The notes under the pieces are model-generated. The model was not told the origin of the DNA and searched no databases. It worked only from the letters and a program-made list of their open reading frames with translations. A program made the position numbers and the translations under genes. 64,000 nt of DNA from assembly GCF_011759585.1 (NCBI RefSeq), contig NZ_JAAOYV010000001.1, positions 1,116,001 through 1,180,000 of the forward strand. Direction: 5' to 3'. Shown piece by piece: positions 29,119 through 35,447 of the stretch. Within the stretch, counting starts at the first letter, position 1; every line of letters starts with the position of its first letter. The DNA is from Frigoribacterium endophyticum (lineage in GTDB: Bacteria > Actinomycetota > Actinomycetes > Actinomycetales > Microbacteriaceae).

Positions 29119-29479
29119 CGCACGGGCGTCCGCCGAGGGCGCACCGCGGGGGCGCCCGCGTGTCGAACGGCTCGCCCGGGCCGTGCAATAATGGTCGAAG
29201 GACCCGTTCGTGTCCTCGCACACCGTCCGCCGTGAGGCGCGTCACCGCGAGGACTTGACATGGGTCCTAGTACTGCCCGAAATCCTGCACCATCTCCCGC
29301 GCGCCCCGTGGCGTGCGAGACCACAGCGACATCGGCCCGCCACCAGGGCCGATCCGGTCGGCCCGCCCCGCGGGCCGTCCGCCCAGAAGCAAGGCCGACC
29401 GACGTCAGGGCGCCGGTCGACACGTCGAGACGCCGCGCCGCAGCCTCCCCGACGCAACCGACGATCGAAAGGTGTTCGC
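29119..29479 (+). promoter_or_regulatory. 361-base upstream region of sigA with two promoter candidates
   Basis: No gene is visible here. One candidate promoter has an extended -10 (TGCAATAAT ending at 29192) with a weak TCGAAC 18 bases before it. The other has a consensus -35 TTGACA at 29255-29260, but the best -10 at 17 bases is only CGAAAT (29278-29283). Either could drive sigA. An AAAGG ribosome site at 29469-29472 precedes the ATG at 29480. Confidence 0.4.
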
Positions 29480-30772
29480 ATGGCTACTCGCAGCAAGGCG
29501 ACCACGGCCGCCCCGGCCGTGTCCGACGAGGGGACCGAGCCCGTGTCCCCGGCCACGGAGGCGGCCGAGACCGCCGCCGCGGCCCCCGCCAAGAAGGCCC
29601 CGGCCCGCAAGGCCCCCGCGAAGAAGGCCCCGGCCAAGAAGGCTCCCGCGAAGTCGACGAAGGCGGCGGCCGGCGAGGACGCCCCCGACGACGAGGCCGA
29701 GGTCGAGCCCGTCGAGGTTCCCGCCGACACCGAGGCCGACGCCGCCGACGAGACCGAGGGCGACGCCCCCGCGAAGGCTCCCGAGGTGCTGCCCACCGGT
29801 GCCCTCGTCATCTCGCAGGACGACGACGACGAGATGCCGGTCTACTCGACCACCATCACCGGTGCGACGGCCGACCCCGTCAAGGACTACCTGAAGCAGA
29901 TCGGCAAGGTCGCCCTCCTCAACGCCGCCGAGGAGGTCGAGCTGGCGATGCGGATCGAGGCCGGCCTCTTCGCGGAGGACAAGCTCTCGCACAGCACGGG
30001 CCTCAGCAAGGAGCTCGAGCGCGAGCTCCGCTGGGTCGCCCGCGACGGGCAGCGGGCCAAGAGCCACCTGCTCGGCGCGAACCTCCGCCTCGTCGTGAGC
30101 CTCGCCAAGCGCTACACCGGTCGCGGCATGCAGTTCCTCGACCTCATCCAGGAGGGCAACCTGGGCCTGATCCGTGCCGTCGAGAAGTTCGACTACACGA
30201 AGGGCTTCAAGTTCAGCACCTACGCGACGTGGTGGATCCGCCAGGCCATCACCCGCGCCATGGCCGACCAGGCCCGCACCATCCGCATCCCCGTCCACAT
30301 GGTCGAGGTCATCAACAAGCTGGCCCGCGTGCAGCGGCAGATGCTGCAGGACCTCGGTCGCGAGCCCACGCCCGAGGAGCTCTCCCGTGAGCTGGACATG
30401 ACGCCCGAGAAGGTCGTCGAGGTCCAGAAGTACGGCCGCGAGCCCATCTCGCTGCACACGCCCCTCGGCGAGGACGGCGACAGCGAGTTCGGCGACCTCA
30501 TCGAGGACACCGAGGCGGTCGTCCCGGCCGACGCGGTCGGCTTCACCATGCTGCAGAAGCAGCTGGAGTCGCTGCTCGACAGCCTCTCCGAGCGCGAGGC
30601 GGGCGTCATCCGCATGCGCTTCGGCCTCGGAGACGGGATGCCGAAGACGCTCGACCAGATCGGCGACACCTTCGGCGTGACGCGCGAGCGCATCCGCCAG
30701 ATCGAGTCGAAGACGATGGCCAAGCTCCGCCACCCGTCCCGGTCGCAGTCGCTCCGCGACTACCTCGAGTAG
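29480..30772 (+). CDS. sigA: Primary RNA polymerase sigma factor
   Basis: The product is 430 aa. The first 100 residues are Lys/Ala/Pro-rich with KKAPA repeats and then acidic, as in HrdB/SigA of actinobacteria. Region 1.2 follows ([20 protein letters not shown]), then region 2 with [43 protein letters not shown] and [16 protein letters not shown] (-10 recognition), region 3, and region 4 with [15 protein letters not shown] and the helix-turn-helix [20 protein letters not shown] (-35 recognition). It is the housekeeping sigma factor. It lies 4 bases before murT, which may be co-transcribed. Confidence 0.97.
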
Positions 30773-30776
30773 ACCC

Positions 30777-32036
30777 GTGAAGTACGTCATCCCCGTCCTG
30801 GCCGGGCGCCTGGTCCGTGCCGCGGCCCGGCTCCGCGGCGGCGGCTCGGCCTACCCGGGCCGCACTGTCCTGACGCTGGCGCCGGACTTCCTCAGCCACG
30901 TCGCGTCGCAGTTCGAGCAGGGCGTCGTCTTCGTGCTCGGCTCCAACGGCAAGTCGACGACGACGATGATGCTGACGGAGACGCTGCGGGCCCACGGCCT
31001 CTCGGTCTTCACCAACCCGACCGGGGCCAACCTGCCCCAGGGCATCGCGTCGGCCTTCCTCCGCGAGGTGACGGTGACCGGCCGTGTCAAGCACGACATC
31101 GGCGTGATCGAGGTCGACGAGGCCTTCGCGGTCGAGCTGACCCGGTCGCTGCACCCCTCGACGGTGCTGATGCTCAACGTCCAGGTCGACCAGCTCTACC
31201 GCTTCTTCGAGACGGAGCGCGTCGGCACGATGATGACCGACACGGCCGCGCTGGCGACCACCGCCGTGGTCACGAACCGCGACGACCAGCACCTCGCGCC
31301 CTACGAGGCACGCCCGGGGCAGACCGTCACCCGCTTCGGCGCGGCCCCCGACGTCGTCGAGGCGTCGCCCAACGGCCTGCAGAACGCCCACGACTTCAGC
31401 CGCGAGGCCGACGGCGGGCGGTCGGCCGACAGCGAGGTCCTCTCGCTCTCCGGCGACCGAGCCACCATCTCGGTCGGCGGCACCACGGTCGAGGTCAGGC
31501 TGCCCGCCCGCGGCCTGCACTACGCCGTCGACGCCGCGGCGGCGCTGCAGACCGCCTCGGTCGTCCTCGGCCGACCCGTCGACCCGGCCGCCGTCAGCCG
31601 GGCGTTCGAGTCGATGAAGCCGGCTTACGGGCGGGGCGAGCGCATGTCGCTCGGCGCCGATGAGGCGGAGTTCATCATGTTTAAGAACGCCGCGAGCCTC
31701 CAGCTGAACCTCGACGCCCTGCCGCAGGACGTCGAGCAGGTCATGCTGGCGATCGACGAGGGCACCCCCGACATCTCGTGGATCTACGACATCGACTTCT
31801 CGCACCTCGACCACGTCGACGTGCTGGCCGGTGCCAAGGCCTGGCAGCTCGCGCTCCGTCTCGAGCACGACGGCATCCCCGTGCACGTCATCGAGGAGGA
31901 CATCTCGAAGGCCATCCGGCTCATGCGCCGGCTGCCCTCGCCGAGCGACCACACGAAGCACTTCGTGACGAACTACGAGCAGATGATGCTGGCCCGTCGA
32001 ATCCTCGGCCACCCCGACCTGGAGAAGACCGCGTGA
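30777..32036 (+). CDS. murT: MurT-like Mur ligase, lacking the cysteine ribbon
   Basis: The product is 419 aa. MurT with GatD normally amidates the alpha-carboxyl of D-Glu in lipid II. Seen: P-loop VLGSNGKSTTTMM (residues 54-66), FTNPTGANLPQGI, DIGVIEVDEAF and the C-terminal domain with MFKNAASLQLNLDA and DISWIYDIDF (332-341), so the ATP-dependent ligase core looks intact. The region after VVTNRDDQHLAPYE (residues 165-230), where usual MurT proteins have a ribbon with two cysteine pairs, contains none; I find no cysteine in the whole protein. It is coupled to the gatD-like gene (4-base overlap), whose glutaminase residues are also missing. It likely still activates a carboxyl group, but the amine donor may differ from glutamine. 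Confidence 0.88.
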   Translation: MKYVIPVLAGRLVRAAARLRGGGSAYPGRTVLTLAPDFLSHVASQFEQGVVFVLGSNGKSTTTMMLTETLRAHGLSVFTNPTGANLPQGIASAFLREVTVTGRVKHDIGVIEVDEAFAVELTRSLHPSTVLMLNVQVDQLYRFFETERVGTMMTDTAALATTAVVTNRDDQHLAPYEARPGQTVTRFGAAPDVVEASPNGLQNAHDFSREADGGRSADSEVLSLSGDRATISVGGTTVEVRLPARGLHYAVDAAAALQTASVVLGRPVDPAAVSRAFESMKPAYGRGERMSLGADEAEFIMFKNAASLQLNLDALPQDVEQVMLAIDEGTPDISWIYDIDFSHLDHVDVLAGAKAWQLALRLEHDGIPVHVIEEDISKAIRLMRRLPSPSDHTKHFVTNYEQMMLARRILGHPDLEKTA

Positions 32037-32788
32037 GCAGCGACACCCTCCGCCTCGTCCACCTCTACCCCGAGCAGCTCGGCGTCAGCGGCGACCGGGG
32101 CAACGTGACGGCCCTCGTCGAGCGCGCCCGCCGGGCCGGCATCGAGAGCGAGGTCCTCGAGTACAGGGTCGGCGACGCGGTCCCCACGGTCGCCGACGTC
32201 GTGCTCGTCGGCCACGGCCCGCTCTCGGGCGTCCGCGCCGTCAGCGAGGACGCACAGCGCCTCCGCGACGCGCTGGAGGGCTTCGCCGCGTCCGGCGTCC
32301 CCGTCGTCGGGGTGGGCGGCGGCATGGAGCTCCTCAGCCACGGCGTGCAGACGACGGAGGGCGAGACGGTGGTCGGCATCGGCTTCCTCCCCGGCACCGT
32401 CCGTCGGGGCGCGCCGCGCCGCACGAACTACTTCCAGGTCACGACCGAGCACCTCGGCGACCCGCTGACGCTCTTCGGCTTCGAGGACCACGCGGCGCAC
32501 GTCGAGCTCGACGCCGACGCGGAGGCGTTCGCCACCGTCGTCCACGGCGGCGGCAACGGCGACGGTCGCTCCGAGGGGATCCGGCGGGGCGCCTCCTTCG
32601 GCACGCAGCTCAAGGGCCCCCTGCTCCCGCTCAACCCGGCCCTGAGCGACCGCCTGCTGCGGGCAGCGCTCACGCGCCGGAGCATCTCGTACCACCCGTC
32701 GGCCGCGCACGCGAAGCTCGACGAGTACGCCGCGGCCTCGCAGCGCGTCATCCGCGACAACCTGGAGCGCTCGTTCAAGGCGATGTGA
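32033..32788 (+). CDS. gatD: GatD-like glutamine amidotransferase, catalytic Cys and His replaced
   Basis: The product is 251 aa from GTG 32033, overlapping the murT stop (GTGA), with GGAG 8 bases upstream. It aligns along its length with GatD: LYPEQLGVSGDRGNV at the start, GFEDHAAHVEL, EGIRRGASFGTQLKGPLLPLN near the end. In active GatD the nucleophile elbow reads ICGGYQ; here it is VGGGME, so Cys is Gly95. The catalytic His lies in GTYLHGP; here GTQLKGP gives Lys194. The GGGSD strand that helps bind glutamine is changed to GHGPL. A working glutaminase is therefore unlikely, although the gene is intact and coupled to murT. It may act as a structural or regulatory subunit. Confidence 0.88.
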   Translation: MSSDTLRLVHLYPEQLGVSGDRGNVTALVERARRAGIESEVLEYRVGDAVPTVADVVLVGHGPLSGVRAVSEDAQRLRDALEGFAASGVPVVGVGGGMELLSHGVQTTEGETVVGIGFLPGTVRRGAPRRTNYFQVTTEHLGDPLTLFGFEDHAAHVELDADAEAFATVVHGGGNGDGRSEGIRRGASFGTQLKGPLLPLNPALSDRLLRAALTRRSISYHPSAAHAKLDEYAAASQRVIRDNLERSFKAM

Positions 32789-33115: not shown

Positions 33116-33350
33116 GGGGTGCTCCTCCTGACGGTGGTGCTGTGGGTGGGTGACACTCATCAAAACACGCGCGCGGCGAGCACGGAGCACATTGCGCGGG
33201 ATTTCGCTCCGCGCGTAGCGGAACGGCCCCGGGAAGGGGGCCTCGCGGGTGTCGACCCGGCCGTATCGGGGGCTCTCGTTAAGATGGACCGAGCCCACCG
33301 CCTCCGGATCCCCCGGTCGACGCGGTCGGCTCAGCGTCAGGAGATCCCCG

Positions 33351-35447
33351 TTGGCCACGTCTGATTACTCGGCTCGACACCTTTCCGTCCTCGAGGGGCT
33401 CGAGGCGGTGCGCAAGCGACCCGGCATGTACATCGGGTCGACCGACTCCCGCGGGCTGATGCACTGCCTGTGGGAGATCATCGACAACTCCGTCGACGAG
33501 GCGCTCGGCGGCCACGGCGACGCCATCGACGTCGTCCTGCACGCCGACGACAGCGTCACCGTCCGCGACACCGCGCGCGGCATCCCCGTCGACATCGAGC
33601 CCAAGACCGGCCTCACGGGGGTCGAGGTCGTCTTCACCAAGCTGCACGCCGGCGGCAAGTTCGGCGGTGGCTCGTACGCCTCCTCGGGCGGCCTGCACGG
33701 CGTCGGCGCCTCCGTCGTGAACGCCCTGTCGGAGCGGCTCGACGTCGAGGTCGACCGCGACGGCGTCACCTGGGCGATGTCGTTCCGCCGCGGGGAGCCC
33801 GGCACGTTCGACGACTCCGGCGAGCCGACGCCCGACGCGCCCTTCACGCCGTTCGTCTCCGGCAGCGTGCTGCGCCGGGTCGGGAAGGTGAAGAAGGGCG
33901 TGACGGGCACGCGCATCCGCTACTGGGCCGACCGCCAGATCTTCACCCGCGGCGCGAGCTTCCAGCCCGACGAGCTGTTCGGGCGGGCCCGCCAGACGGC
34001 CTTCCTCATCCCCGGCCTGTCGCTGCGCATCCGTGACGAGCGGCCCGGCTCGCTGACCGACGGCGGCTTCCCCTCCGAGAGCACCTTCCGCTTCGACGGC
34101 GGCATCAGCGAGTTCGTCGAGTTCCTGGCGCCCGACACGGCCGTGACCGACACCTGGCGGATGACGGGCCGGGGGAGCTACACCGAGACCGTGCCCGTGC
34201 TGACCGAGGGCGGTGCCATGGTCGCCACCGAGCTCGAGCGCGAGTGCGAGGTCGACATCGCGCTGCGCTGGGGCAGCGGCTACGAGACGGTCTTCCGCAG
34301 CTACGTCAACATCATCGCGACGCCCAAGGGCGGCTCGCACCAGGCCGGCTTCGAGGCGGGCCTGCTGAAGTTCCTCCGGCAGCAGGTCGAGGCGAACGCC
34401 CGTCGACTCAAGGTCGGCACCGACAAGGTCGAGAAGGACGACGTGCTGGCGGGGCTGACCGCGGTGCTCACCGTGCGCCTCCCCGAGCCGCAGTTCGAGG
34501 GCCAGACGAAGGAGATCCTCGGCACCCCCGCCGTGCGGGCGATCGTCGCCGGCGTCGTGGCCGACCAGTTCGGCGAGCTCTTCGGCTCGTCGCGCCGGGA
34601 GGACAAGGCGCAGACGGCGCTCGTGCTCGACAAGGTCGTCGCCGAGATGAAGTCCCGCATCGCCGCTCGGGCCCACAAGGAGACGCAGCGGCGCAAGAAC
34701 GCGCTCGAGAACAGCTCGCTGCCCGCCAAGCTGGTCGACTGCCGGTCCAACGACGTCGCGAACAGCGAGCTCTTCATCGTCGAGGGCGACTCGGCCCTCG
34801 GCACGGCCAAGCTGGCCCGCGACAGCGAGTTCCAGGCGCTGCTGCCCATCCGCGGCAAGATCCTCAACGTGCAGAAGGCCTCGGTCAGCGACATGCTCTC
34901 CAACGTCGAGTGCGCGTCGATCATCCAGGTGCTCGGGGCGGGGTCGGGGCGGTCGTTCGACCTCGACGCGGCGCGCTACGGCAAGGTCATCATCATGAGC
35001 GACGCCGACGTCGACGGAGCCCACATCCGGACGCTGCTGCTCACGCTCTTCTTCCGGTACATGCGCCCGATGATCGAGCAGGGGCGCGTCTTCGCGGCCG
35101 TGCCTCCCCTCCACCGGGTCGTGGCCATCAACGCCGGCAGCAAGCCGAACCAGACCATCTACACGTACTCCGAGCAGGAGCTGAAGGGGGTGCTGGCGGG
35201 TCTCCGCCGGAGCGGCAAGCGCTACCAGGACCCGATCCAGCGCTACAAGGGCCTCGGCGAGATGGACGCCGAGCAGCTCGCGACCACCACGATGGACCGC
35301 AAGGGGCGCATGCTGCGCCGGGTCAGGGTCGACGACGCGGAGAACGCGGCGCGGGTCTTCGAGCTGCTGATGGGCAACGACGTGGCCCCCCGCAAGGAGT
35401 TCATCATCGACGGGGCCGGCCTCAGCCGCGACCGCATCGACGTCTGA
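33351..35447 (+). CDS. parE: DNA topoisomerase IV subunit B
   Basis: The product is 698 aa from TTG 33351 (AGGAG 7 bases upstream). A TAAGAT -10 box at 33280-33285 would give a leader of about 60 bases. The GHKL ATPase domain shows RKRPGMYIGSTD, EIIDNSVDEAL (catalytic Glu and Asn), DTARGIPVDIEPKTG, and KLHAGGKFGGGSYASSGGLHGVG. The transducer follows, then the TOPRIM domain with ELFIVEGDSALGTA, LLPIRGKILNV, IIMSDADVDGAHIRTLLL and YKGLGEMDAEQL. Together with ParC it decatenates chromosomes. GyrB is similar; the pairing with the convergent parC gene decides for ParE. Confidence 0.93.
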   Translation: MATSDYSARHLSVLEGLEAVRKRPGMYIGSTDSRGLMHCLWEIIDNSVDEALGGHGDAIDVVLHADDSVTVRDTARGIPVDIEPKTGLTGVEVVFTKLHAGGKFGGGSYASSGGLHGVGASVVNALSERLDVEVDRDGVTWAMSFRRGEPGTFDDSGEPTPDAPFTPFVSGSVLRRVGKVKKGVTGTRIRYWADRQIFTRGASFQPDELFGRARQTAFLIPGLSLRIRDERPGSLTDGGFPSESTFRFDGGISEFVEFLAPDTAVTDTWRMTGRGSYTETVPVLTEGGAMVATELERECEVDIALRWGSGYETVFRSYVNIIATPKGGSHQAGFEAGLLKFLRQQVEANARRLKVGTDKVEKDDVLAGLTAVLTVRLPEPQFEGQTKEILGTPAVRAIVAGVVADQFGELFGSSRREDKAQTALVLDKVVAEMKSRIAARAHKETQRRKNALENSSLPAKLVDCRSNDVANSELFIVEGDSALGTAKLARDSEFQALLPIRGKILNVQKASVSDMLSNVECASIIQVLGAGSGRSFDLDAARYGKVIIMSDADVDGAHIRTLLLTLFFRYMRPMIEQGRVFAAVPPLHRVVAINAGSKPNQTIYTYSEQELKGVLAGLRRSGKRYQDPIQRYKGLGEMDAEQLATTTMDRKGRMLRRVRVDDAENAARVFELLMGNDVAPRKEFIIDGAGLSRDRIDV

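Follow-up and report, generated by a model that had tools for sequence, protein, structure and literature searches.

The question raised by this locus is what becomes of a lipid II isoglutaminyl synthase whose glutaminase residues have gone. In a stretch of 64,000 nucleotides from Frigoribacterium endophyticum (the window; NCBI RefSeq assembly GCF_011759585.1, contig NZ_JAAOYV010000001.1, positions 1,116,001 to 1,180,000), two adjoining genes encode a MurT/GatD pair, in which MurT has the Mur ligase fold and GatD has the class I glutamine amidotransferase fold with its nucleophile lost. A first-pass annotation made from the sequence alone had proposed that the pair no longer releases ammonia and that MurT joins an amino acid to the α-carboxyl of D-glutamate (D-Glu), making the cross-bridge of B-type peptidoglycan. 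Since Schleifer and Kandler (1972), group-B (2-to-4) cross-linking has reportedly been used as a marker in taxonomy. With moderate confidence, we conclude that the pair derives from a lipid II isoglutaminyl synthase, is glutaminase-dead and now probably acts as a D-Glu α-carboxyl aminoacyl ligase for the group-B bridge.

Both open reading frames (ORFs) are intact and overlap by 4 bp (murT stop codon at 32034-32036, gatD GTG start at 32033), as annotated, and the cysteine count is zero in both proteins, the annotation having noted this for MurT. The pair was recognised by Pfam (MurT_C 38.7 bits, cut-off 25; Mur_ligase_M 28.2, cut-off 24; GATase_3 55.2, cut-off 27), and its best scores against the NCBIfam equivalog models fell far under the cut-offs (MurT 101.8 against 800 bits, GatD 87.4 against 450 bits). 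AlphaFold2 models had mean predicted local distance difference test (pLDDT) values of 92.7 for MurT and 95.5 for GatD. With Foldseek, the top matches of the MurT model were the MurT subunits of MurT/GatD complexes, followed by pMurC (6VR7) and MurF, while those of the GatD model were the GatD structures 5n9m and 6gs2, with a template modelling (TM) score of 0.85. Residues were numbered by alignment to Staphylococcus aureus MurT and GatD, using letters derived from the PDB. In the window GatD, Cys94 is replaced by Gly95 and His189 by Lys194 (C94G and H189K, the two catalytic losses already annotated), Gly60 by His61 and Tyr17 by Ser19, with Arg128 (Arg129), Asp19 (Asp21) and Asn22 (Asn24) kept. 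The window MurT retains Lys59, Thr61, Asn85, Glu108 (Glu112) and Asp349 (Asp332). Replacement of the nucleophile in S. aureus GatD by C94G or C94S is described as abolishing amidation (PMC6113224). For the Streptococcus pneumoniae enzyme, Asn85 of MurT was placed at the acceptor carboxylate by docking and by analogy with MurD and MurF, and Tyr30 of GatD is described as an ammonia gate (PMC6085368).

The same losses were followed through the order. An order-wide draw of 297 genomes gave a MurT_C match at E ≤ 0.001 in 101, with nine Microbacteriaceae at 23.7-41.9 bits and the others at 65-104 bits; as the Pfam model detected just 9 of the 25 Microbacteriaceae drawn, it was too weak for the window's kind of MurT, and MurT presence was therefore scored with the window protein and a profile (A1). 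Of 144 loci, six were set aside (the window itself in two copies, two loci with other glutamine amidotransferases and two MurT genes for which no GatD was found), leaving 138 scored GatDs, of which 57 had both Cys and His (hereafter canonical) and 81 lacked Cys94. The 81 pairs with a Cys-less GatD form one MurT clade and are referred to as type I; in a MurT tree of 140 rows they lie on one side of a single branch (Shimodaira-Hasegawa-like approximate likelihood ratio test, SH-aLRT, 100; branch length 0.58), joined by a single further row whose GatD was not scored, and all are from Microbacteriaceae. The canonical set comprises 12 GatDs from Microbacteriaceae and 45 from eight other families, in all 45 of which Cys and His are kept. 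Within the order sample, type I is thus confined to Microbacteriaceae, and the loss is not spread among A-type genera, a distribution that the annotation's hypothesis had called for. To our knowledge the rest of the order has an A-type wall, no other family being B-type.

On the ligase side, MurT residues Gly58, Lys59, Thr61, Asn85, Glu108, Asp110, Glu111, Asp134, Arg138 and Asp349 are invariant across all 81 type I proteins, which also share a two-residue alignment gap in the DNAAD region. On the amidotransferase side, Cys94 (57 of 57 canonical) is found in none of the 81, and neither is the tyrosine equated with the ammonia gate (57 of 57 canonical; in type I, N in 51, S in 15, T in 7, A in 5, F in 2 and Q in 1). 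Since Arg128 (57 of 57 canonical) is kept in 75 of the 81 and His189 in 42, the pocket of type I GatD is, as read from these alignments, largely kept, with its nucleophile and plug gone. The annotation had also treated the missing Cys ribbon of MurT as unusual. This argument did not hold, and ribbon loss was discarded as a mark of new function, because 51 of the 57 canonical MurTs likewise lack two CxxC motifs (at least two were present in only 6); a Cys tetrad is described in MurT from only some Actinobacteria (PMC6085368).

Pairwise ratios of nonsynonymous to synonymous substitution rates (dN/dS) within the window's genus, calculated over five genomes with that of the window among them, were 0.07-0.17 for MurT and 0.07-0.31 for GatD, and the window MurT is 88.5% identical to another Frigoribacterium MurT (85% for the neighbouring gene, which we take to be PAC2-like). 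Given these low ratios and the absence of Cys94 from 81 of 81 type I GatDs, the residue losses of the window pair are not a matter of chance. Decay, or a purely regulatory role as a pseudoenzyme pair without catalysis, would fit the loss of the GatD catalytic residues and the shortening of some GatDs in reduced genomes, but it is extremely unlikely, as dN/dS is well under 1, the MurT active-site residues are retained in 81 of 81, and the genes keep their position in 87 of 90 genome entries and are replaced elsewhere by a well-conserved gene of a ligase family.

That position is the slot between the primary sigma factor gene sigA and a parE/gyrB-type gene in Microbacteriaceae. MurT follows sigA in 87 of 90 genome entries with type I, in 11 of 12 with a second Cys-less kind (type 3, described below) and in none of 17 with canonical MurT, counts by kind that cover the fetched loci rather than all 164 MurT-bearing genomes; for a further kind, type 4, it was 0 of 2 by the distance rule. 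Eighty loci were read around the PAC2-like neighbour, seven of which were left unjudged (six were cut off and L270 had no sigA in reach). In the 73 judged loci, the gene after sigA was type I in 50, type 3 in 4 and, in 16 loci from 15 genomes, a gene resembling CofE, the F420-0:L-glutamate ligase; none of these was found after sigA in 3 (a Naasia locus, L295, whose type I pair is elsewhere, Alpinimonas and Aurantimicrobium). No locus among the 73 had both a CofE-like gene and a MurT. The CofE-like protein matched PF01996 at 28.4-46.7 bits (gathering threshold 25) in 5 of 5 tried, and in four tried it reached at best 35.6 bits against the 180.65 required by the CofE equivalog TIGR01916. Because its own profile gave 364-443 bits within Microbacteriaceae and at most 199 in other families of the order, the slot gene looks like a lineage of its own. 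CofE is described as joining glutamate to carboxyls, with guanosine triphosphate (GTP)-dependent activation (PMC10861534).

The exchange was then scored over whole genomes. Among 199 Microbacteriaceae genomes, MurT was present in 164 (148 at E ≤ 1e-20 with the window protein and 16 of 27 weaker matches confirmed by profile) and absent from 35 (24 without a match, all but G459 and G466 retested with the profile, and 11 with weak, unconfirmed matches). At a threshold of E ≤ 1e-50, the CofE-like gene was found in 28 genomes, which were 28 of the 35 without MurT and none of the 164 with it (Fisher p = 6.5e-28, uncorrected for kinship). It stood directly after sigA in 26 of the 28, the other two having no sigA in the piece read. 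Both alternatives occur within nine genera (g2, g3, g98, g100, g142, g143 with type 3, g157, g159 and g164); in the order-wide draw, genus g3 alone (12 genomes) had the CofE-like gene in 8, a MurT_C match in 3, both in 0 and, by these tests, neither in 1. Forty-nine genomes were also checked whole, with some kind of MurT in 33 and none in 16. Another explanation would be that the CofE-like gene and the type I MurT are functionally unrelated and share an insertion hotspot after sigA, which is in keeping with the slot being empty or otherwise filled in some genera and taking several contents, types 3 and 4 included. We regard it as very improbable, since the exclusion holds genome-wide and not for the slot alone, both kinds occur in nine genera, and more genomes with both genes or with neither would have been expected than the 0 and 7 of 199 seen.

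An amino-acid-ligase-family gene thus replaces the pair at the same place, which makes an amino-acid ligase likelier than an amidase as the function of type I MurT/GatD. A second line of evidence came from the other Cys-less forms. In type 3, which a profile search revealed in 11 of the 199 genomes, Cys94 of GatD is replaced by His and His189 by Ile or Leu in 9 of 9 GatDs; of the nine aligned MurTs, eight carry Cys ribbon motifs and eight have Asn in place of Asp349. Type 4 was present in two more genomes (g138), and one further relative in G300; one genome, G442, carries type I and type 3 together. In a 57-row MurT tree, type I (20 rows) and types 3 and 4 (10 rows) branch from different canonical lineages, so that the tree forces two changes and Cys94 of GatD was probably lost at least twice; this was a quick tree of chosen rows, in which the type 4 row is long and its placement unsure. 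The exchange with the CofE-like gene and the separate second loss of the nucleophile in the same slot support the proposed ligase function independently and strengthen the core of the annotation's inference, its Cys-ribbon argument aside.

We infer the reaction, the substrate and the role of GatD as follows. With ATP, type I MurT would form the acyl phosphate of the D-Glu α-carboxyl on the lipid-linked precursor, as has been proposed for canonical MurT. GatD, having kept Arg128 and lost Cys94 and the gate tyrosine, would make no ammonia and would instead provide a wall or docking site by way of which a free amino acid attacks with its amino group. This would leave D-Glu bearing the first bridge residue on its α-carboxyl, and in B2 walls this residue is probably a D-diamino acid (D-lysine, D-Lys, in Frigoribacterium and D-2,4-diaminobutyric acid, D-DAB, in Clavibacter). 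In sister species the CofE-like ligase in the slot may perform the same function, usually alongside an ATP-grasp protein. More broadly, and only tentatively, the sigA-parE slot can be viewed as the site of an interchangeable cassette that forms the first bond of the bridge in group-B walls, supplied convergently by Cys-less MurT/GatD and by the CofE-like ligase. Under such an arrangement the MurT/GatD pairs, converted on at least two occasions (type I and types 3 and 4), would use the old glutamine pocket to dock a free, probably D-configured diamino acid, and the CofE-like and ATP-grasp proteins would serve two-residue bridges starting with another amino acid, for example glycine.

If correct, this would give a name to the enzyme that places an amino acid on the D-Glu α-carboxyl and would show how loss of the ammonia source can make a peptide ligase of a glutamine amidotransferase. 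The repeated conversion of an amidotransferase and the recruitment of a relative of an F420 ligase would then be convergent answers to one wall problem, and gene content would predict the bridge type across a family whose members live in soil and with plants. With type I MurT/GatD and the CofE-like gene naturally exchanged within nine genera, the idea can be checked on the walls of sister species.

The gene beside the CofE-like ligase bears on the acceptor. An ATP-grasp gene adjoins 14 of 16 CofE-like loci, 1 of 50 type I loci and 2 of 4 type 3 loci (for example L243:15343-16350, L248 and L269); its product was PF14397 in the three tested and it lies mostly on the strand opposite to the CofE-like gene. 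The ATP-grasp protein may ligate a second residue of the bridge. Its frequency at CofE-like loci would also suit a different account, in which the cassette in the slot serves as amino-acid ligase for a different bridge residue or a different cell-envelope molecule: the work of several ligations may be divided between genes, and the exchange with a CofE-like gene speaks for amide ligation and says nothing on the acceptor. Such a shift of acceptor is quite unlikely in view of the retained Asn85, which docking and analogy place at the acceptor carboxylate, and of the lipid II amidase fold of type I MurT. An Alr-like gene was present in 11 of 50 type I loci (near gatD in L245, L246, L291, L299, L302 and L304). 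A racemase beside gatD was considered as proof of a D-amino-acid bridge and rejected, as all six proteins tested scored above the ordinary alanine-racemase cut-off and may be housekeeping enzymes; three Alr-like proteins from CofE-like loci fell below it.

The recorded wall types were compared with the gene content. Frigoribacterium is listed as B2β with D-Lys (PMC7033078, Table 3), in agreement with the annotation's premise that its wall is not A-type. Rhodoluna lacicola is given as B2β with D-Ala-D-Dab, assigned at peptide level (PMC4156110), and B2γ is recorded for the type I genera Subtercola, Agreia (with D-ornithine, D-Orn), Agromyces, Herbiconiux and Cryobacterium; one Cryobacterium locus, L289, has the CofE-like gene instead of type I. 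The CofE-like gene was found in 2 of 2 Lacisediminihabitans strains, and the genus description, for another species, gives B1α. A rule assigning B1 walls to the CofE-like gene and B2 walls to type I was tried and is kept as no more than a lead, only Lacisediminihabitans supporting it on the CofE side among the descriptions consulted.

By the annotation, a second intact MurT/GatD pair or a known bridge-forming ligase in the genome would have told against its reading. Searches of the window genome turned up neither: there was no MurT_C match beyond the one, no second full GatD-type match (one among three GATase_3 matches) and no FemAB match. The closest relatives are the canonical MurT/GatD complexes (S. 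aureus 6GS2/6H5E, S. pneumoniae 6FQB, Streptococcus pyogenes 9SQ9), which share with the window pair the two-gene operon, both folds and the MurT P-loop, Asn85, Glu108 and Asp349, and which were its top Foldseek and HMMER matches. The window pair differs from them in lacking the glutaminase Cys and His and the gate Tyr, in its DNAAD gap and in scoring below the NCBIfam cut-offs. MurC to MurF and pMurC/pMurE belong to the same ATP-dependent ligase superfamily as type I MurT and join amino acids, as is proposed here. CofE/FbiB (PF01996), a diverged relative of which fills the slot in MurT-less species, is unrelated to MurT/GatD. Ligases of the FemABX and Aslfm types add the A-type cross-bridge at residue 3 and not at the D-Glu α-carboxyl; as enzymes adding a bridge to the stem peptide, they would be functional analogues of the type I pair. 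In the open-licence PubMed Central (PMC) literature, no report among the matches listed described an enzyme for attaching an amino acid to the D-Glu α-carboxyl, and nothing linked MurT/GatD to Microbacteriaceae or MurT to B-type peptidoglycan. Among the matches listed there for F420 ligase, peptidoglycan and Microbacterium, none concerned a wall role for a CofE-like protein.

Several observations weigh against the aminoacyl ligase. Within the pair itself, His189 persists in the 42 type I GatDs mentioned above, and MurT Asp349, the third residue of the triad, is kept in 81 of 81 despite the loss of its partner Cys. Neither MurT nor the CofE-like gene was found, at the thresholds used, in 7 of the 199 genomes (G237, G312, G340, G350, G398, G400 and G446). 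The exclusion is also not absolute, since G402 (L174) carries a divergent CofE-like gene of 160 bits, below threshold, beside a type 4 MurT. Canonical MurT occurs in twelve genera of the fetched set, four genomes carrying it together with type I, and 13 of the 17 genome entries with canonical MurT had no other kind among the fetched loci. When the 1.5 kb after sigA was scanned with MurT, GatD and CofE-like profiles in 30 genomes of unusual genera, all 30 with a strong match to the C-terminal part of sigA, 21 genomes belonging to twelve genera (g5, g95, g97, g104, g109, g113, g133, g136, g144, g146, g153 and g163) had no match above threshold there; of the other nine, eight had MurT and G342 had an Alr-like match only. 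If these slot-empty members are B-type, the slot is not the sole route to the bridge. As for the walls, the assignments are mostly at genus rather than strain level, and the Agromyces bridge is written D-Glu-L-Dab. Lastly, D-Glu amidation is listed among the Clavibacter muropeptide modifications seen by ultra-performance liquid chromatography-mass spectrometry (UPLC-MS; PMC9603630), a modification that a pure aminoacyl ligase would leave unexplained, and ammonia is described as replacing glutamine for the S. aureus enzyme at pH 8.5 (PMC6085368).

Taken together, the amidated D-Glu of Clavibacter and the ammonia-fed S. aureus enzyme make ammonia-dependent amidation possible. The type I pair could then still amidate D-Glu from free ammonia, with GatD merely keeping MurT in an active shape, a role that would agree with the retained MurT ligase residues and with the requirement reported for GatD in S. 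aureus even when ammonia is supplied (PMC6085368). This alternative is nevertheless unlikely. In a B-type wall the α-carboxyl bears the bridge, an amino-acid-ligase-family gene fills the slot in sister species, the gate Tyr is absent from 81 of 81 type I GatDs, and in the four genomes with both type I and a canonical Cys/His pair a second amidase would be redundant.

The positions of the genes and of the residues discussed are collected below. The two border genes were named from their ORFs. A short reverse-strand ORF lies between gatD and the parE/gyrB-type gene, and the latter recurs as a neighbour at many of the sigA slots read in relatives.

Positions in the window of the slot genes and active-site codons, with the type 3 loci of relatives
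Feature	Position	Strand	Remark
Primary sigma factor gene (sigA/rpoD type)	29210-30772	+	Left border of the slot; ORF, named from sequence
murT (type I), Mur-ligase-fold subunit	30777-32036	+	419 aa, Cys-free
P-loop codons 55-61 (GSNGKST), MurT	30939-30959	+	Gly58, Lys59, Thr61 in 81/81 type I
Asn85 codon, MurT	31029-31031	+	Placed at acceptor carboxylate; 81/81 type I
Glu112 codon, MurT	31110-31112	+	S. aureus Glu108, Mg/ATP; 81/81 type I
Remodelled DNAAD region, MurT	31758-31772	+	Two residues gone between codons 328 and 329; Asp332 (S. aureus Asp349) kept
gatD (type I), class I glutamine-amidotransferase fold	32033-32788	+	251 aa, Cys-free, nucleophile gone
Ser19 codon, GatD	32087-32089	+	Replaces putative gate Tyr (S. 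aureus Tyr17, S. pneumoniae Tyr30)
Gly95 codon, GatD	32315-32317	+	Replaces nucleophile Cys94
Arg129 codon, GatD	32417-32419	+	Kept; S. aureus Arg128, equated with S. pneumoniae Arg142 and presumed to bind glutamine
Lys194 codon, GatD	32612-32614	+	Replaces His189
parE/gyrB-type topoisomerase gene	33249-35447	+	Right border of the slot; ORF, named from sequence
Type 3 loci (L241, L254, L257, L264; L164-L173)			Slot after sigA

Some individual loci departed from the common arrangement. In L174 (G402) and L353, a type 4 MurT/GatD pair stands after a divergent CofE-like gene that itself follows sigA, the only arrangement in which a MurT and a CofE-like gene were seen side by side. In L361 (G426, g97), a ligase of MurE-type appearance, scoring 20 bits to the MurT profiles, lies after sigA and is a possible further content of the slot. 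Two different type I pairs were found in G401 (L096 and L097), one of them without an adjoining sigA. In the reduced 0.9 Mb genome G308 (L158, L374), sigA is followed by a type I-like MurT, and the GatD has no nucleophile Cys; G304 has a type I MurT directly after sigA with a strongly diverged GatD, in which Ala is aligned to Cys94. A TGA codon was seen inside the aligned MurT stretch of L159 (G355) and L078 (G353), perhaps owing to a frameshift or an assembly error.

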